A stretch of DNA of 64,000 nt from Acidovorax sp. NO-1 (GTDB taxonomy: Bacteria; Pseudomonadota; Gammaproteobacteria; Burkholderiales; Burkholderiaceae_C), in assembly GCF_000238595.1 (NCBI RefSeq), contig NZ_AGTS01000071.1, positions 1-64,000 of the forward strand, written 5' to 3'. Positions within the stretch are counted from its first letter, which is position 1. Each line of letters starts with the position of its first letter. Shown one piece after another: positions 19,181 to 26,217 of this stretch. Below the pieces are notes generated by a model that worked only from the letters and a program-made list of their open reading frames with translations, had not been told where the DNA came from and made no database searches. Both the position numbers and the translations under genes were made by a program.

Positions 19181-20404
19181 TTAACGCCGCGGTAGCGCTT
19201 CGGGTGTGCGCCACTGCAATGGCACCAGCGCGTACAGAGGGCTGGGGTCGCGCTGCCAGCCGTGGGGCGCAAAGGATTTGGGTGCGCCCGGCGTGATGCT
19301 GCTGCCCATCGGGATGTTGGCCAGTTGCTGCATCCACGCGATATCAATGGCGCCCCCTTGCAGCGGCCTCGAAAAAATCAGCTCCAGCATCTTGCGCGCC
19401 TGGGGATCGCCGCCGCTGGCGGCGATCTGGTACAGGCGCACGGCTTCGGTGTAGTTGGCGGGCACGCCATCGCCCTGGTGGTAGCGCTGCGCCTGGGCAA
19501 ACCAGTCGGCCGGGCTGTAGCGGGCAGGCCGGGTCCGGCCTGTCGGTCCACTGCGGATGCGGCTGGCCAGCAGCCCCGCATTGGCGGCCGCGGCTTCGGA
19601 CCTCTCTGCCACCGACTGGAATTGCCCAAGTGCTTTGTCCAGCTCGCCTTTGGCCAGCCACTCCAGCCCGAGCTCGTTGCCCGCCTGGGCATTGCCTGCA
19701 CGCGCGGCGTCTGCCAGCAGCTTTTGCAGATGCTGGCCAGCGGCAACACCCTGGCTGGGCGCGGCGTCTGGCCGCGCAGATGCTGCTGTGGGGTCTGCCA
19801 GCGGGGCCAGTGCCTTGGCGGCATGCCATTCGAGGTACTTGGCGAGACCGGGGTCGGTGCGACTGACCAACGCAATCCAGTGCATGGCCGTGGAAGGGTT
19901 GGGTGCGGACACGCAGCCGCTGATCTGGCACCAGGCAAGGCCCGCCGGTGCCAGCGGGTGGCCCAGCATCTGTGCGCGCTCAAACCAGTGCTGGGCTTGT
20001 GGTGGGTCTGCGGGCATGGCCAGCCCATGCAGCGACAGCAGGCCCAGCAACCATGCTGCGTCGGCGGGCGCCAGGTCGGCCGACGTTCGCGGTGCGGCAC
20101 CTGGCCCGGTGCGCGGTTTGCGCGAAGGGGCGGCCTCGCGCTGTGCGGCGCTGCGTAATTTCTGCAACATCTGCTCCTGGAGCGGGTTGTCGGGCCCCTG
20201 GGCCCGGGGGGAAGCCGCGTTCACCGTGGAGCGCTCGATGTCCGAATCTCCGGGCGTTGGGAGCGCGCGCACCGATGCCTGCGCCGGCGTGGCAGCGGCC
20301 GCGAGCAGCAGCCACGCAGCGCCCCAGGCCTGTGCCAGGGCGGTGAGTACAAGGGCTGTCCGGTAATTGACTGGCGACATGGTGGGTGCCGGTTGAACCG
20401 CCAT
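19181..20404 (-). CDS. Sel1-repeat (TPR-like) secreted protein, last gene of the CsgG-like operon
   Basis: A 407-residue protein with an N-terminal hydrophobic segment that fits a signal peptide or anchor (TALVLTALAQAWGAAWLLLA). Sel1-type helical pairs follow: AAWLLGLLSLHGLAMPADPP then AQHWFERAQMLGH, a central block around AGNAQAGNELGLEWLAKGEL, and YHQGDGVPANYTEAVRLYQI then AASGGDPQARKMLEL. Sel1 repeats form solenoids that hold protein partners. The start at 20404 lies 4 bp after the stop of the CsgG-like gene; a start at 20380 (MSPVNY) is also possible. Its place in the operon suggests a periplasmic scaffold for the secretion apparatus. No catalytic motif is seen. Confidence 0.82.
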   Translation of the reverse strand: MAVQPAPTMSPVNYRTALVLTALAQAWGAAWLLLAAAATPAQASVRALPTPGDSDIERSTVNAASPRAQGPDNPLQEQMLQKLRSAAQREAAPSRKPRTGPGAAPRTSADLAPADAAWLLGLLSLHGLAMPADPPQAQHWFERAQMLGHPLAPAGLAWCQISGCVSAPNPSTAMHWIALVSRTDPGLAKYLEWHAAKALAPLADPTAASARPDAAPSQGVAAGQHLQKLLADAARAGNAQAGNELGLEWLAKGELDKALGQFQSVAERSEAAAANAGLLASRIRSGPTGRTRPARYSPADWFAQAQRYHQGDGVPANYTEAVRLYQIAASGGDPQARKMLELIFSRPLQGGAIDIAWMQQLANIPMGSSITPGAPKSFAPHGWQRDPSPLYALVPLQWRTPEALPRR

Positions 20405-20407
20405 GCA

Positions 20408-22180
20408 TCACTTGCGTGGAGCGGGCTGGGCCGGTGCAACCGGCATCACCCGGCGCGGGACGACCTGCCAGTACACCGCGTTGCCGGTGTACCCCTCGCT
20501 GCCCCAGGCCGCTGCAAAGGCCTGGTTCAAGCCTTCGAGCGTGCGGTAGTTTTTGAGCGGTTTGAGTGGCGGGCCGCGCAGGTCTTCGGGCAGGCGGGCC
20601 ATGCTGTCCTCGTCGGTGGCAAAGCAGGCCACGCCTTCGGTGCCAGGGCTGGCCGCATCCATGATGAAACCGGGATTCGGGCTCATCCAGTCGGGAATGC
20701 GTATGGCCTGATTGGCAGACACCCAGCCTGTGCTGTTGGCCTGGTTGGGCAGCAGACGGATGATGGTTCCGGTGGCGTCGGCCAGGTAGCACTGCAGGTA
20801 GGAAGCCCGCGACACCGTGGCCGACAGGAAGACCTGCTCACCCACCTCAAAGGCGGTGCGCTCCAGCAAAACGTTCTCGATCTGCAGGTTGATCGTGCGC
20901 GCAGGCGCCGCAGCACCGTACCGGGGCGCATCAGGATCGTTGCTGACCCCATCCACCCCCGTCGTCCCTGGCGTTGCCGGGCTGGCGGCAGCGGACTGCA
21001 CGGGCTGCGCATGCGTGGCGGCCCAGCCGATGCGGGTCAAGGTGCCTTCTGCAGAAAGCCCGACAAAATGGCGCAGGGCGCGTTCGTAGGTGGGAAAGTC
21101 CACCACGCCGGTTACCACCATGCCGTTGTCGGCCTGGAAGCGTGCGAGTGCCTTGCGCAGCGCCGGGTCGTTGTCTGGCAGGGGGGATGTGAACGGTGCC
21201 AGATAGCCACGGCTCACCAGGGAGCGCGTGATGAGCTGGGTGCGTACGGCAGGGGTGCCTTCGTCGAACCAGTCGCGCAGCTGGCGCTGAAAGTCGGGAT
21301 GGTTCTGCTCCAGCGTCAGGCACTGCCAGTAGGGCACACGGGCCCACTTGCCAATGAGCTCGATGGTGGCCAGGTCCACCAGGGTACGCACCGCACCGCC
21401 CGAGCCCTGCGTGTAGTCGCGCCCTACATTGAACTGCACGCCGTAGGTGCCAATGCGCCCTGCCAGGTCGATGCCCTGGCCGCCGTTGCCGATGATGACT
21501 TCGTTGGCCGAATCCAGGCCGGGGATCAGCGTGCGGGTGCGAAAGTCGCCCAGGTGCATCTCCAGCCCGATGATGGTGGCGTTGCGGCTCTGGCTGTAGC
21601 CCATGTCGATGCGGGGGCCCGAGAGCCCCGTATCAAACCGGTTGTTGATCACGTTCTGGTCAACGAACGAGATCGCGCCCGACAGGTACAGCGCCGGGCG
21701 CTGCAGCTGCATCTGGTTGTTGTTGAGCAGGATGGTGGTGAGGTTCTGCACCGTGTCCTGGCGTGCGATATCGACCTCATAGTCCACAAAGCGGAAGGCA
21801 TTGCTCAGGCGCGACATCTGCGACAGCGCCGTGATGATCATGTCCTTGGTGGCCACAGTCACGCGGGTCGAGTAGTCGGGAATCTGCTTGCTGGTGATCA
21901 GGGTGGTGGGCAACTGGGCGTCACGCAGCATGTGGTCCATGCACATCAGCGAATCGGAGAAGCTCGAAATCGACCGGGTAGGGCGCACCACAGGCCGGTC
22001 GGTGATGGACGCGAGGCTTTGAAACTCCTGGTCCTTGCGCGGGTCGCGCGGGGTGGCGCAACCGGCCATCAGCAAAGCCGCCACCATCAGCAGCAGCACC
22101 CACAGTGCAGGCCGCTTCAGCGGGCCGGCTGCCATGTGGTGGCCGCAAGGGCTGGGCGGGCTCAGGGTTGTGGGGGCCAT
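20408..22180 (-). CDS. CsgG/HfaB-like outer membrane lipoprotein with PG-binding-like and DUF4384-like domains
   Basis: A 590-residue lipoprotein with lipobox LMAGC, the lipidated Cys being residue 41 from the start at 22180. A start at 22135 (MAAGPLK) would give a shorter signal peptide, but GGAG precedes the first. Residues about 60-290 follow the order of CsgG: KDMIITALSQMSRLSNAFRF, a strand-rich centre with IGLEMHLGDFRTRTLIPG, and the closing VDLATIELIGKWARVPYWQC. Residues 332-372 (ALARFQADNGMVVTGVVDFP) resemble a peptidoglycan-binding fold. Residues about 430-575 fit DUF4384 (VGEQVFLSAT, RLLPN, IRIPD, ACFAT). CsgG forms the nonameric export pore for curli subunits and HfaB does so for holdfast anchor proteins. 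Upstream genes encode two small secreted proteins, its likely cargo. The family call is from pattern and context, not a database search. Confidence 0.75.
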   Translation of the reverse strand: MAPTTLSPPSPCGHHMAAGPLKRPALWVLLLMVAALLMAGCATPRDPRKDQEFQSLASITDRPVVRPTRSISSFSDSLMCMDHMLRDAQLPTTLITSKQIPDYSTRVTVATKDMIITALSQMSRLSNAFRFVDYEVDIARQDTVQNLTTILLNNNQMQLQRPALYLSGAISFVDQNVINNRFDTGLSGPRIDMGYSQSRNATIIGLEMHLGDFRTRTLIPGLDSANEVIIGNGGQGIDLAGRIGTYGVQFNVGRDYTQGSGGAVRTLVDLATIELIGKWARVPYWQCLTLEQNHPDFQRQLRDWFDEGTPAVRTQLITRSLVSRGYLAPFTSPLPDNDPALRKALARFQADNGMVVTGVVDFPTYERALRHFVGLSAEGTLTRIGWAATHAQPVQSAAASPATPGTTGVDGVSNDPDAPRYGAAAPARTINLQIENVLLERTAFEVGEQVFLSATVSRASYLQCYLADATGTIIRLLPNQANSTGWVSANQAIRIPDWMSPNPGFIMDAASPGTEGVACFATDEDSMARLPEDLRGPPLKPLKNYRTLEGLNQAFAAAWGSEGYTGNAVYWQVVPRRVMPVAPAQPAPRK

Positions 22181-22220
22181 GTTGTGTCTCCGTGCGGCGA
22201 GGGTGGCGCTGGCAATGTGG

Positions 22221-22655
22221 TTACCTGCAGATGTTCACGAGGTCACCGCGCAAGACCACGACCTGGGGGCCCTGGTTCGGGCCATACCGGCCCGTGCCGG
22301 CAGTGCCGCCCGATACCGTATTGCTGCCAACTTCCTGTACGCAGGTTTTCTGCATGCCCTCGGCGGTGGCGGTGGTGACCACATCGTTGTTGGTCAGCAC
22401 ACCGCTGGTGTCGTCAGAGAACGCCTTGGCTTCATACCGCGCAATGCGGGCGCGAAGCCAGGACGGCATGGCGTTGTTGTTGTCAAGCCCTGTGGACGGC
22501 GCTGCAGCACCCATGGGCAGCATCTGGACCGAGAGTTTCTTGGTGAGGACGACGGGGTCTTCGCCCGGTGCCTGCGACCATGCGGGAGCGGCCCACCACA
22601 GAGAGAGGCCTGTGGCCAGAACCGGCGCCCACCGTGCAAAGCGTTGTGTGTTCAT
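22221..22655 (-). CDS. Small secreted protein, probable partner or cargo of the CsgG-like pore
   Basis: A 144-residue protein of unrecognised family. Residues 1-27 form a Sec signal peptide ending AWS. The mature part has a Pro/Ala/Asn-rich middle, then the segment KTCVQEVGSNTVSGG (Cys105), a Gly/Asn loop, and the closing strand QVVVLRGDLVNICR (Cys143). The two cysteines could form a disulfide closing a terminal hairpin. The start at 22655 was chosen over 22712 because AGGAGG lies just upstream and it gives the signal peptide directly. It lies 40 bp upstream of the CsgG-like gene. By analogy with CsgB or HfaA it could be a nucleator or minor subunit, but I see no firm homology. Confidence 0.8.
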   Translation of the reverse strand: MNTQRFARWAPVLATGLSLWWAAPAWSQAPGEDPVVLTKKLSVQMLPMGAAAPSTGLDNNNAMPSWLRARIARYEAKAFSDDTSGVLTNNDVVTTATAEGMQKTCVQEVGSNTVSGGTAGTGRYGPNQGPQVVVLRGDLVNICR

Positions 22656-22814
22656 GGAACACCTCCTGAAATTAAAGCGGGGCACATGGGGCTGCCAGTG
22701 ACAGCCGCACACCCGTGCCCCTTCGCCAACACGTCCCGGCGGTAGTCCTACGCCGGGAACCTGGCCGTTGCCGGCCTGTGCGCTGCCACCGCGGCGGCAG
22801 CGTTCACTGTGGCA

Positions 22815-23288
22815 TCAGAAGGGCCAGCCGGTGGTCTTGGTGGGCTGGCAGGTGAAGCAGGCATTGTTGGTGGCAATGTTCTGCACGGCTTTGCTGTTGC
22901 TGCCGCTGGAGAGGTTGTTGACCGAGGCACCCATCAGCGCCGTGAACTGGCTGGAGTTGCCAACGATCGTCACTTCACCCACGTTGGACGACAGGTTCTG
23001 GCTGGCGTAGGCATCGCTGCCGCTGGCGGTGTTGGTCACATTGCCGCCAGCGCCCATCACTGTCTGTGTCGAGTTGCCGCTGATGGTCACATTGCCGGTG
23101 TTGGAACCAAGGTTCTGAAAGGCTTCGCTCTTGGAACCGGTCGAATTGTTGTTCACCGACATGGAGGTCAGTGAAACCGACTGGGTGGAATTGCCGGTAA
23201 TGGTGATGTCCGGGCTGGAAGCTACGGGACCGGTGGCCATTGCGGCAGAGGCGATGACGCTGAGCGTGATGAAAGCAAGGGTTTTCAT
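22815..23288 (-). CDS. Secreted protein with three 39-residue Asn/Gln/Ser-rich repeats (curlin-like amyloid candidate)
   Basis: A 157-residue protein: signal peptide 1-18 (ending AAMA), three tandem repeats at residues 25-63, 64-102 and 103-141, and a short tail with C144FTC147. Each repeat has the same length (39) and the same fixed positions: a TI.GNS.Q strand, a Asn/Ser/Gly turn region, and GS.S.A.QN..SN. Gln36/75/114, Gln58/97/136 and Asn63/102/141 therefore stack in register, as the Gln and Asn ladders do in curlin repeats of CsgA. A good ribosome site (AAGGAT) precedes the ATG. It is the first gene of the minus-strand operon that also encodes the CsgG-like pore. I infer an extracellular, possibly amyloid, fibre subunit. 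Confidence 0.8.
   Translation of the reverse strand: MKTLAFITLSVIASAAMATGPVASSPDITITGNSTQSVSLTSMSVNNNSTGSKSEAFQNLGSNTGNVTISGNSTQTVMGAGGNVTNTASGSDAYASQNLSSNVGEVTIVGNSSQFTALMGASVNNLSSGSNSKAVQNIATNNACFTCQPTKTTGWPF
22866..23216 (-). repeat. Three tandem 117-bp coding repeats
   Basis: The three 39-residue units of the secreted protein are encoded at 23100-23216, 22983-23099 and 22866-22982. The protein motif is conserved while codons have diverged. This points to an old duplication held by selection, not recent slippage. Confidence 0.85.
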
Positions 23289-23756
23289 GGCAGATCCTTC
23301 AATGGTGGAACTTCGACACTGTCTGCAACCGCAGAAAAACCTGTGGTGCAGTGCTGTTGGACGGTGCCGCCGGGCCCTTCCACTTGCGTGGACGGCGGCC
23401 GTTTGGCGCTGTCGGGTTGCAGTGTGTTCCCGGATGTGTTTGCCGCGAATACGCTGTGCGGGCTACCTCAATCGCAGCAACGTGCCAGTGGTGGCCGTGG
23501 CGCACGGGCGTTGTGGTGAAAGGGATTCCTGGACATTTGCTGCCAGGAAGTCCTGTCTAAACCTTGGTAGTAACAAAATGCTTCTATTGCAACAGTGTCA
23601 TTTTTAGCGCGACGGTGGTAATTTTTTGTCGCACTGTGTTCGTTAGCGCACAGAGGACAAGCCCACCTCACGGAAAGATGCATGAAAATTTGCATGTGAA
23701 AGCGTCCTCTGTGGGCCCCTTTTCTGCGATGTGACGGGTTTCAAGGAGCGATCAAC
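23289..23756. promoter_or_regulatory. Divergent control region between fibre operon and two-component genes
   Basis: These 468 bp hold no gene I can support. The right half is AT-rich. It contains an interrupted palindrome ACAGTG (23592-23597) with CACTGT (23632-23637) enclosing GCGAC/GTCGC. It also contains a nested hairpin: outer arms CACAGAGGAC (23649-23658) and GTCCTCTGTG (23704-23713), inner arms ATGCA (23678-23682) and TGCAT (23691-23695). The nested hairpin would lie in the leader of the response-regulator mRNA and is followed by GGGCCCCTTTT. Both transcripts must start here, and the palindromes are candidate operators for the adjacent NarL-type regulator. Confidence 0.5.
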
Positions 23757-24578
23757 GTGAACAGCAACATGCCTTCCCAGACCGTTGGCACCACCGGTAT
23801 GCCCCACCGTTCGGAGGCGCTGACTTCCATGGGGTGCGACGAATCAGCGTTGCCTTCGGGTCAGTTTGGAACCTTCAGCAATCCCCCGTCTGTGTGGCCT
23901 GCATTTCTCACCGGACAGGAGACCAGCCCGGTGCGCGTGCTGCTGGTGGATGACGACCCCCACATCCGCCTGGTGATTGCGCAGGAGCTCATGGCAGACG
24001 CCCGCACCCTGTTGGTGGGGCAGGCGGGCAGCGTGCGCGAAGGGCGCCGTGCGATCAAGCAATACGACTTCGATGTGCTGCTGGTGGACCTGAATCTGGG
24101 CGACGGCAACGCCTTCGATCTGCTGGAATACCTCAAACCGGCCCGCCCCTCGGCGCAGGCCGTGGTGATATCGGTCATGGAAAACGACGATGAGGTGATC
24201 CGCGCCTTCGAGCTCGGCGCTTGTGGCTATGTGGGCAAGAACTCGTGGTTTGGCAACTACGCGCAATCTGTTTTGCAAGTCGCCAACGGCGGTGCCTCCA
24301 TCACGCCCAACCTTGCGCGCCGGCTGCTCCAGCGGTTTGACCGCACCAACTCCGCAGAAAACAAGCGCAGACAGCCCGATGAGGTAGACCGTTTGTCCGC
24401 GCGGGAAAAAGAAATCCTGCGCCTGGTGGCCAGCGGCTACACCAGCGCGGAAGTGGGCTCGCGTCTGCTTATCAGCTGCATGACGGTCAATACCCACCTG
24501 CGAAACATCTATCGCAAGCTGCAGGTGCGTACCCGCGCCCAGGCCGTACGCTTTGCCTCGTTGCGGGGGCTCTTCTGA
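23757..24578 (+). CDS. NarL/LuxR-family response regulator
   Basis: A 273-residue DNA-binding response regulator. An extension of about 57 residues without known motif precedes the receiver domain (about 58-175), with the acidic pocket at D65-D67 and the phospho-acceptor Asp111 in LLVDLNLGDG. The C-terminal LuxR helix-turn-helix covers about 208-270 (LSAREKEILRLVASGYTSAE, then VNTHLRNIYRKL). Translation starts at a GTG 8 bp after AAGGAG. It is divergent from the fibre operon and is followed after 62 bp by a histidine kinase. The arrangement recalls CsgD, also a LuxR-type regulator of curli, but here with a cognate kinase. Confidence 0.92.
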   Translation: MNSNMPSQTVGTTGMPHRSEALTSMGCDESALPSGQFGTFSNPPSVWPAFLTGQETSPVRVLLVDDDPHIRLVIAQELMADARTLLVGQAGSVREGRRAIKQYDFDVLLVDLNLGDGNAFDLLEYLKPARPSAQAVVISVMENDDEVIRAFELGACGYVGKNSWFGNYAQSVLQVANGGASITPNLARRLLQRFDRTNSAENKRRQPDEVDRLSAREKEILRLVASGYTSAEVGSRLLISCMTVNTHLRNIYRKLQVRTRAQAVRFASLRGLF

Positions 24579-24640
24579 ACCCAGGCCTGGCCGTACTGGC
24601 CGTCCACGCGCAGCCGTTGTCCAGCGCATAAATCCGAGCC

Positions 24641-25483
24641 ATGTTTCGCACCCGTCCTCCCTGGTTCGCCATGGTGTGCGTTGGCATATGGGTTTTGCAG
24701 CTGGGACTGATGGCGATGGCTTTTCACTGGATCGGGTCGGTGGGCTCTTCAGAGCAGCAATGGTGGGAGCTTGCGGTGGTGGGGGTCTCGATGGGGCTTG
24801 GGGCATTGCTGCTGGTACAGCTCCCCAGGGCCATGCAATGGCGCCCCCGCCTGAACGTTCGCCCCAGCGCCGAGCTGATGGCCGAGCGCCGCCGCATTGC
24901 CAGGGATCTGCATGACCACCTGGGTTCGCAGCTTGTCAATGCCATGGGCCTTCTCGACAGGGATCAGCCGCGTGCGCGTGACATCCGTGCAGTGCTTGAA
25001 ACATGCCTGCTGGACCTGCGCCTCGTCGTTGACTCGATGGATGGAGCGCAGGACACGCTGGCCGACCGCATGGCCCGCCTGCGCCACCGCATCCAGCCAG
25101 TGCTGGACCAGCGGGGAATCGGCATGTTGTGGGACGTTGACATACCCCCGGGCCCCCGCTTGCCGCACGCCGGCAGCGCGGACCAGCTGGTCGCCATCAC
25201 GCAGGAAGCCCTGAGCAACATCCTGCAGCATGCCAGTGCGACCGAGGTGTCTGTGTCCGCCCGGTACATCGCGCACGCCGGACTCTGGCTCTGGGAGGTG
25301 TGTGACAACGGCCTGGGCATGCCTGCTGCAGATGCTGACCCCGAAAGCACCCGAGGGACGGGTTTCGGCCTGAAAGGGATGCACACCCGGGCCGGACTGG
25401 CGGGGGGTGAGCTTCAGATCCTGCAACGGGAGGCAGGAGGTACGCGAGTGCGGGTGATCCTGCCCACGGGCGGCGGCGTTTGA
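24641..25483 (+). CDS. Membrane histidine kinase, NarX/DegS-type (HisKA_3)
   Basis: A 280-residue sensor kinase with two hydrophobic segments (about residues 9-32 and 43-61) and only a very short loop between them, so it has no sizeable periplasmic sensor domain. The phosphorylated residue is His91 in the HisKA_3 motif RRIARDLHDHLGSQL. The HATPase domain shows the N box EALSNILQHA, the G1 box DNGLGMP and the G2 box GTGFGLKGM. This kinase class pairs with NarL-type regulators, which fits the gene just upstream. It may sense membrane state or need an accessory sensor. Confidence 0.92.
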   Translation: MFRTRPPWFAMVCVGIWVLQLGLMAMAFHWIGSVGSSEQQWWELAVVGVSMGLGALLLVQLPRAMQWRPRLNVRPSAELMAERRRIARDLHDHLGSQLVNAMGLLDRDQPRARDIRAVLETCLLDLRLVVDSMDGAQDTLADRMARLRHRIQPVLDQRGIGMLWDVDIPPGPRLPHAGSADQLVAITQEALSNILQHASATEVSVSARYIAHAGLWLWEVCDNGLGMPAADADPESTRGTGFGLKGMHTRAGLAGGELQILQREAGGTRVRVILPTGGGV

Positions 25484-25677: not shown

Positions 25678-26217
25678 ATGTCACCTCTTATTTCCGGTCT
25701 GGTCAGCTCGGTTGCGTCCATGATCTTCAACGCAGCTACCGCGGGCCCGGGCAAGGCGCAGGCCGCGCGCCGCAATGGCGAGGAGACCCCGGGGCCATCC
25801 TCGTTCCTGCATTTGAGTCCCGAGGCAGCGTCGCTGGCCGGCATGGCGGGCAAAGGCGTGGCGGTAGGCACAGGCAACAGCGCACTGCCTTCAAGCATGG
25901 GGGTGGGCAGCATGCACGGGCGTTCAGTGTCCCGCGAGGACTTCCAGACGCTGCTCGAGCGTTTTGGCGCCACTCAGGCGCAAAAAGATCAACTGGTAGC
26001 GGGGTTTGACACCAACAACGATGGCAGGATCGGCCAGGACGAGTTCCTTCAGGGTCTGTCGAAAACCCGGGGCGCGCAGGCCGGCAGCGATTTTGCGCAG
26101 ACCGTGCTCCAGCTCATGGACAACGCCGGAAACGCAGACGGCACCGTGGCACGGCAGGAGTTCGCAGCCTTGACGACCGCATTTGGCTCGGCACAGAGCG
26201 GCCCACGGCAAGCATGA
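25678..26217 (+). CDS. EF-hand domain protein
   Basis: A 179-residue protein with a canonical EF-hand calcium loop at residues 111-122 (D111, N113, D115, R117, E122). A second, atypical loop occupies about 148-162 (DNAGNADG then VARQEF), one residue longer than standard. The N-terminal 80 residues are Ser/Ala/Gly-rich with no clear signal peptide, although the first 20 residues are mildly hydrophobic. Small EF-hand proteins of this kind occur in many betaproteobacteria without assigned roles. It is monocistronic, between two terminators. Confidence 0.82.
   Translation: MSPLISGLVSSVASMIFNAATAGPGKAQAARRNGEETPGPSSFLHLSPEAASLAGMAGKGVAVGTGNSALPSSMGVGSMHGRSVSREDFQTLLERFGATQAQKDQLVAGFDTNNDGRIGQDEFLQGLSKTRGAQAGSDFAQTVLQLMDNAGNADGTVARQEFAALTTAFGSAQSGPRQA

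Follow-up and report, generated by a model that had tools for sequence, protein, structure and literature searches.

A group of six genes, proposed here to encode a secretion system for a surface fibre, lies in the genome of Acidovorax sp. NO-1 between positions 19181 and 25483 of the window, the 64,000-nucleotide stretch of contig NZ_AGTS01000071.1 that was analysed. An earlier note on this DNA, made from the letters and their open reading frames (ORFs), had read the locus as a curli- or holdfast-like fibre system with its own two-component switch, and all six ORFs were confirmed where it had placed them. Four genes are transcribed from the minus strand in the order repeat protein, 144-residue protein, 590-residue lipoprotein and Sel1 protein, separated by gaps of 159, 40 and 3 bases. 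Divergently from this run, the gene of a NarL-type response regulator is followed by that of a histidine kinase on the plus strand. The peptidoglycan-binding and DUF4384 domains of the lipoprotein, the 39-residue repeats, the structured gap after the repeat gene and an element upstream of it were absent from the earlier note. The features are given below in window coordinates, with protein positions in amino acids (aa). Literature is cited by PMC accession.

19181-20404, minus strand: Sel1-repeat protein (P0001) with an apparent signal peptide; PF08238, Sel1, E 5.1e-11 (Pfam)
20408-22180, minus strand: proposed exporter (P0002), predicted CsgG-fold outer-membrane lipoprotein, 590 aa, lipobox Cys41
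21308-21976, minus strand: CsgG-like pore domain of the exporter, aa 69-291 (predicted structure)
Exporter aa 164-187, 191-212, 217-243 and 246-257: long strands (AlphaFold2 model)
21083-21220, minus strand: peptidoglycan-binding domain of the exporter, aa 321-366; PG_binding_1, PF01471, E 3.6e-6
20609-20851, minus strand: DUF4384 domain of the exporter, aa 444-524; PF14326, E 1.5e-12
22221-22655, minus strand: second small secreted protein (P0003), 144 aa, APGEDPV motif, two conserved Cys
22815-23288, minus strand: fibre subunit as proposed here (P0004; 157 aa), with a signal peptide recognised by eye, three repeats and a C-terminal CxxC
22866-23216, minus strand: the three repeats of the subunit, aa 25-141; Gln/Asn recur at matching repeat positions
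22848-22859, minus strand: C-terminal CxxC of the subunit, C144 and C147
22734-22758, minus strand: hairpin, one of several that the gap downstream of the subunit gene is predicted to form; attenuator role proposed
23409-23428, minus strand: conserved upstream element, family consensus caGAcACTGnancCaGaCaa, roughly 120-140 bp ahead of the subunit gene, placed in the window by eye from the alignment
23566-23574, strand not given: GGTAGTAAC box in the region that separates the divergent genes, candidate site for the regulator, chiefly in Acidovorax-like loci
23757-24578, plus strand: NarL/FixJ-type response regulator (P0005); receiver (Response_reg) and GerE domains (Pfam)
24641-25483, plus strand: histidine kinase (P0006) with HATPase_c (E 2e-13) and, judged by eye, two transmembrane helices at the N-terminus

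The proposed exporter lipoprotein

Sequence searches of the Protein Data Bank (PDB) with the exporter, with its profile and with the profile of a paralogue from the same genome yielded chance matches only, so that a fold search was needed. The AlphaFold2 model, built from 61 aligned sequences, has a mean predicted local distance difference test score (pLDDT) of 80.9 and a predicted template-modelling score (pTM) of 0.59. In it, residues 164 to 257 contain four long strands, with block-mean pLDDT of about 71-91; residues 141-160 lie at 57-58. A Foldseek search of the PDB gave 25 chains at E<=0.001, every one of them from a CsgG entry (best E 2.8e-11, probability 1.00). VIA-align gave a best Z of 15.2 to CsgG over 202 residues (root-mean-square deviation, rmsd, 5.2; model range 69-288), with eight CsgG entries at Z 13.1-15.2 and the first row of any other kind at Z 9.8. 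The CsgG-like lipoprotein of the earlier note is borne out in that residues 69-291, against the range of 60-290 named there for testing, match CsgG in the predicted structure; by its model, the exporter has the CsgG fold.

Entries of PelC, which shares the same core fold, were found at Z 8.9-9.1, and TPR-like proteins pair with polysaccharide export lipoproteins and porins. The lipoprotein might on these grounds be a PelC-like accessory of polysaccharide export, with the Sel1 protein as its TPR-like partner and the small proteins in the periplasm. We regard this as highly improbable: CsgG scores far higher (Z 15.2 vs 9.1), the paired long strands of the exporter model at 164-257 are not known from PelC, and no synthase or polysaccharide gene stands among the conserved genes tested.

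At the sequence level, the exporter was called neither CsgG nor HfaB above cut-off by Pfam or NCBIfam, and an hhalign comparison of its profile with Escherichia coli CsgG (probability 43.6, E 2.4e-4) was limited to an N-terminal stretch, signal peptide included. The Pfam CsgG family (PF03783) was matched by 4 of 61 exporter homologues at E<=1, the best at 7.2e-5; DUF4384 and PG_binding_1 were each present, at the same threshold, in 61/61 of the homologues scanned. The exporter alignment (A3) holds 60 of 69 usable homologues together with the window's own protein, 11 of 80 having been excluded for a missing start, a short match or a contig edge. Because the C-terminal region of CsgG faces the periplasm (PMC12822426), the two added domains are expected to be periplasmic.

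The genome of strain NO-1 also encodes a second CsgG/HfaB-like lipoprotein of 389 aa, 27% identical to the exporter, on another contig (L041, contig C129, 2981-11685). The two exporter families are related by hhalign at probability 99.5, and the paralogue resembles HfaB at E 2.5e-4, below cut-off. It is neighboured by a 1196-residue repeat protein, by proteins of 121 and 165 residues and by Sel1 and OmpA-like genes, and exporters of its type occur in 8/35 other genomes of the genus. This may be a second, larger fibre or adhesin system. In a locus from another family of the order (L040:2544-12310), a CsgG-like and DUF4384-like lipoprotein accompanies several small NTNINAVAG-type repeat proteins as well as Sel1-like, OmpA-like and cyclase-like proteins, all assigned by eye; the layout appears to be a more distant relative of the one described here.

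The repeat protein and its small neighbour

The proposed fibre subunit is made of three 39-residue repeats with the family consensus AGDVTINGTSTQTTALKNSAVSNKASGSGSKAVQNLASN (235 units), matched by the repeat hidden Markov model (HMM) at residues 26-63, 64-102 and 103-141. In an alignment of 45 sequences (A4; 44 of 74 repeat proteins, picked for a length near that of the window's protein, plus that protein), Q36/Q75/Q114, N47/N86/N125, N59/N98/N137 and N63/N102/N141 fall at matching positions of the repeats and are invariant or at least 90% conserved. The cysteines C144 and C147, part of a CFTC motif near the end of the protein, are invariant in the same alignment. Among 64 proteins from loci of the window's type, as defined below, CxxC follows the last repeat in 48, the cysteines are spaced otherwise in 15 and one protein has none. 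The AlphaFold model of the subunit is a beta-solenoid with 12 strands at 39-residue steps, four strands being predicted for each repeat (block-mean pLDDT 88-96 for residues 31-140, pTM 0.71). The number of repeats differs between homologues: of 74, 46 have three, 11 have five, 10 have two, three each have seven and four, and one has a single repeat, this last being probably a contig-edge fragment (L093). Repeat number varies in curlins too.

Neither the subunit nor the second small protein belongs to a Pfam family, and NCBIfam gave for one of them just a chance-level row (E 0.14). The curlin family (PF07012) has no match in the subunit and is not among 25 of 41 families listed for 45 homologues, a listing that is not itself an exclusion. 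In the second small protein, C105, V134, G137 and C143 are invariant among 31 aligned sequences (A5; 30 of 74 homologues and the window's own), and a role as minor subunit, nucleator or adaptor is proposed for it; the Sel1 protein is proposed as a periplasmic scaffold. A repeat arc at the C-terminal end of the second small protein, suggested by visual likeness only, was rejected. Its hhalign comparison with the repeat protein aligned the signal peptides and nothing else, and the best value of the repeat HMM was E 0.014, in a single member out of 31; for the protein of the window it was 1.6.

Gene linkage and expression signals

Linkage was examined in a set of loci from named genomes, the best 80 of at least 128 relatives, which were divided by identity and content, not by tree, into 66 loci of the window type, 10 that form a second subtype and 4 from Alphaproteobacteria. 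A gene was counted when the protein of the window was matched by tblastn in the set place and strand, and a locus was testable when its contig extends far enough. Among testable window-type loci the repeat gene was found in 62/62, the second small gene in 63/64, the Sel1 gene in 61/61, the divergent regulator in 49/57 and the kinase in 45/54. The small genes are therefore conserved beside the lipoprotein gene, as the claim of the earlier note demands. Its suggested check on gene order came out the same way, all six genes standing in identical layout in 42 of 51 window-type loci with enough flank, which places the arrangement above chance. The locus of Acidovorax delafieldii DSM 64 (L122) likewise carries the full set of six. 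The dedicated switch that it had proposed is usual by these counts and not universal. The misses include a second small gene that is present outside the set range (L112), a regulator and kinase in another orientation (L096) and two loci in which a related regulator lies beyond Sel1 (L076 and L077).

Regulator and kinase qualify as an adjacent two-component pair, the former with receiver and helix-turn-helix domains and the latter with H-box and ATPase; the HisKA_3 domain of the kinase falls slightly under the Pfam cut-off (20.2 of 24 bits). Next to the kinase, at 25678-26217 of the window, stands a gene for an EF-hand protein with weak similarity to the XopAW calcium-binding family (32.9 of 120 bits, well below cut-off). 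It is placed outside the module because it is present in only 4 of the 80 loci.

In the second subtype, exporters are 39-44% identical to that of the window and the subunits have mostly two repeats; the small genes are present in 10/10 loci, Sel1 in 6/10 and the regulator and kinase in 0/9. One two-repeat locus (L038:4638-5063) has upstream an extra 141-residue protein with three stretches weakly matched by the repeat HMM (E 0.0037, 43-protein set), possibly a second subunit. In the alphaproteobacterial set, Caenispirillum salinarum (L123:8604-9867) carries GIGNTANQ-type repeat proteins near a 35%-identical exporter, and window-type small genes were not found there.

Some exporter match was obtained in 21 of 60 genomes searched, the window's own included. 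The window type occurs in 11 of 35 other genomes of the genus; in nine of these the stretch taken carries the whole set of six, and in the other two it is truncated where the contig ends. Family-wide, 54 of 399 genomes and 35 of 141 genera, with the window's genome counted, have an exporter match at E<=1e-60. The hosts of the named-genome set comprise Acidovorax, Simplicispira, Polaromonas, Hydrogenophaga, Delftia, Comamonas, Diaphorobacter, Ottowia, Limnohabitans, Xylophilus, Xenophilus, Variovorax and others, together with a Polynucleobacter metagenome-assembled genome and one Lysobacter.

The gap after the repeat gene (22668-22814) folds better than its dinucleotide shuffles (z -3.18), and ten homologous gaps gave z from -1.86 to -3.90. 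Over 63 homologous gaps, z was below -2 in 54 (median -3.08) vs 11 of 63 upstream control stretches of equal length (median -0.74), and a terminator-like hairpin with a T-run occurred in 18/63 gaps vs 2/63 controls. The window's own gap has hairpins and no T-run; terminator-like sites number two in the whole window vs 5.2 in shuffles, neither of them inside this gap. Rfam gave no match at gathering scores, and sigma-70 consensus promoters in the window numbered zero. A leaky stop behind an abundant subunit, made in excess of the exporter, would produce such a structured gap; another reading is that the structure protects the messenger RNA.

Upstream of the repeat gene, the element caGAcACTGnancCaGaCaa (23409-23428 in the window), built of two CAGACA-like halves, has its best site 120-147 bp from the gene in 28 of 52 regions; an interval of 99-147 bp takes in 36 of them. 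Its information content of 14.86 compares with 10.15-10.61 in three mononucleotide shuffles, searched from 25 starts vs 60 for the real data. The 52 regions were retained out of 62 after near-duplicates and the second subtype had been dropped, and they are related by descent. Of 71 loci, 10 carry a further box, GTTACTACC, upstream of the subunit gene, where it is about 100-fold denser than in the rest of the loci, an enrichment that arises partly by construction since the box was chosen after viewing an alignment of close relatives.

Relation to known systems and proposed mechanism

With curli (type VIII secretion, csgBAC-csgDEFG) the locus shares a CsgG-fold outer-membrane lipoprotein, a short signal-peptide repeat protein beside it and a LuxR/NarL-type regulator nearby. 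Unlike curli, its repeats are 39 residues long instead of about 22, its exporter bears peptidoglycan-binding and DUF4384 domains, and in place of CsgD it has a regulator with a receiver domain and a kinase of its own (CsgD model, 54.6 bits against a cut-off of 250); Pfam curlin repeats, CsgE and CsgF are all missing. The Pfam models for CsgG, CsgE (PF10627), CsgF (PF10614) and curlin found nothing in the window's genome (completeness 100), with a positive E. coli control each time. The locus is therefore not a rearranged curli operon as these models define one: an identity with curli in the strict sense is not supported, and the absence of csgE and csgF remarked on in the earlier note extends to the genome as seen by Pfam. 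Both genes are also described as missing from about half of the alphaproteobacterial curli genera, and csgD likewise from beta- and deltaproteobacterial curli (PMC3521004).

The Fap system (fapABCDEF) offers a likeness on the side of the subunit, compared here by description and by fold. FapC is reported to have three 37-residue repeats and a conserved CxxC (PMC6173800), with a conserved Asn/Gln array and one repeat per layer (PMC12392863). In the present family repeats are likewise of similar length (37-39 residues across both), three is the commonest number, CxxC and an Asn/Gln ladder recur, and the best fold match, a weak one, is FapC. The differences lie in the exporter, here a CsgG-fold lipoprotein and in Fap the trimeric 12-stranded barrel FapF (PMC6173800), in the repeats, which are consecutive and lack long linkers, and in the sequences, between which no match was seen.

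Taken together, the locus is probably a dedicated surface-fibre secretion system, in which a repeat protein passes through a CsgG-fold pore under its own sensor-regulator pair. Several observations weigh against this reading. The whole-exporter superposition on CsgG is loose, with TM-scores by target of 0.36-0.65, Foldseek rmsd of 5.2-12.5 A and identities of 13-15%. CsgE and CsgF, which serve curli export, were not found in the genome by the Pfam models. No divergent regulator was found in 8/57 window-type loci and no divergent kinase in 9/54, neither was found in 9/9 of the second subtype, and the four distant alphaproteobacterial exporters have no window-type small genes (0/4). On the subunit side, beta-solenoids are readily predicted for repeats, and Foldseek of the subunit model against the PDB gave nothing at E<=0.001. 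The top row was the FapC amyloid, weakly (E 0.0079, probability 0.15), with the CsgA fibril fifth (E 0.29); in VIA-align FapC again came first yet weak (Z 3.9, rmsd 3.9, 103 residues), with the CsgA fibril third (Z 2.7). A search of the PDB by sequence with the subunit profile found no amyloid, the repeat HMM found neither CsgA nor CsgB, and hhalign of the subunit family with CsgA aligned signal peptides only, as it did for the second small protein and the repeat protein. Four strands are predicted per repeat, whereas each FapC layer is described with five short strands (PMC12392863). The repeat number varies here from two to seven, whereas FapB and FapC are reported to have almost invariably three (PMC12822426).

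The weak fold matches of the subunit also include ice-binding proteins and bactofilin, which would fit a secreted monomeric surface or ice-binding beta-solenoid that does not polymerise. FapC outranks these proteins, the repeat number differs between orthologues and CsgG-type pores are known as exporters of amyloid subunits, and the monomeric alternative is accordingly held to be improbable.

The main rival draws on the Caulobacter holdfast anchor (HfaA/HfaB/HfaD): one or two short repeat proteins would stay as outer-membrane patches and tether a polysaccharide, as HfaA and HfaD do for the holdfast. HfaB is the named model that the exporter family touches most (42 of 61 homologues at E<=1, best 3.7e-7), the paralogue in the same genome is HfaB-like (E 2.5e-4, below cut-off), small secreted partners adjoin in both systems and the subunit is short, with two or three repeats in 56 of 74. 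HfaA is also described as resembling CsgA, and HfaB as resembling CsgG (PMC6707917). The window's exporter, however, reaches 14.3 bits against the HfaB model (NF037935), whose cut-off is 300 and whose 264 positions compare with 590 residues, and on this score the holdfast identity raised in the earlier note is not supported either. The two-component pair is a further difference, no holdfast or other polysaccharide gene is among the six conserved genes, and the variable repeat number and structured gap fit an abundant polymer. An anchor of this kind is considered unlikely.

Computation supports the CsgG fold, the repeat architecture with its predicted fold, the gene linkage and the structured gap; we infer that the repeat protein is exported and polymerises, what the second small protein and Sel1 do, and how the operon is regulated. 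According to the surface-fibre reading, the repeat protein would cross the inner membrane by Sec, remain unfolded in the periplasm and exit through an oligomeric outer-membrane pore formed by the lipoprotein. Outside, it would fold as a beta-solenoid in which layers of 39 residues stack end to end by Asn/Gln ladders, as in the FapC and CsgA amyloids, and its C-terminal cysteines may cap or cross-link it. The second small protein, which has a Cys pair of its own, may act as minor subunit, nucleator or adaptor and so cover the roles of CsgB, CsgE or CsgF. Through its peptidoglycan-binding domain the exporter would anchor the pore to the wall of the cell, with the Sel1 protein perhaps as a scaffold on the periplasmic side. 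The structure in the gap after the subunit gene may lead to an excess of subunit over exporter, and the divergent NarL-type regulator and kinase would switch the operon. The product of the locus would be a fibre or adhesin.

In its biological kind the locus would be a variation on CsgG-type export of repeat subunits. The wider proposal, which we hold with belief and doubt in equal parts, is that of a functional-amyloid secretion family separate from curli and Fap and invisible to the Pfam curlin model, combining a FapC-like Greek-key subunit, a wall-anchored CsgG-type pore and, usually, its own two-component switch, and spread through the Comamonadaceae branch of the Burkholderiales. The earlier note had not recognised the locus as a described system, and no description of the module was found in the open-access literature, subscription journals being outside the search; nor did that literature yield a pairing of DUF4384 with CsgG. 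NanoporeDB treats CsgG-like pores broadly. Canonical curli operons are already known from the Burkholderiales and Burkholderiaceae (PMC3521004, PMC12822426), so that amyloid in the Burkholderiaceae is not itself new. A 2025 survey screened with curlin-repeat and Fap models (PMC12822426), and it likely missed this repeat-protein family because the Pfam curlin model does not find it, a reasoning that proceeds from Pfam's model and not from the survey's own.

With its varying number of repeats and a switch close by, the system is easy to test. If the product is a functional amyloid, it would add a fibre family beside the curli reported from the Burkholderiaceae (PMC12822426). It would likewise show that subunits with Fap-like repeats can exit through a CsgG-type pore, and it would provide a natural experiment on the replaceability of CsgE, CsgF and CsgD in curli biogenesis. 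CsgG pores also serve nanopore sensing, for which the wall-binding version would be a new scaffold. The Comamonadaceae, through which such a fibre family would be spread, are common in fresh water, sludge and soil and on plants.

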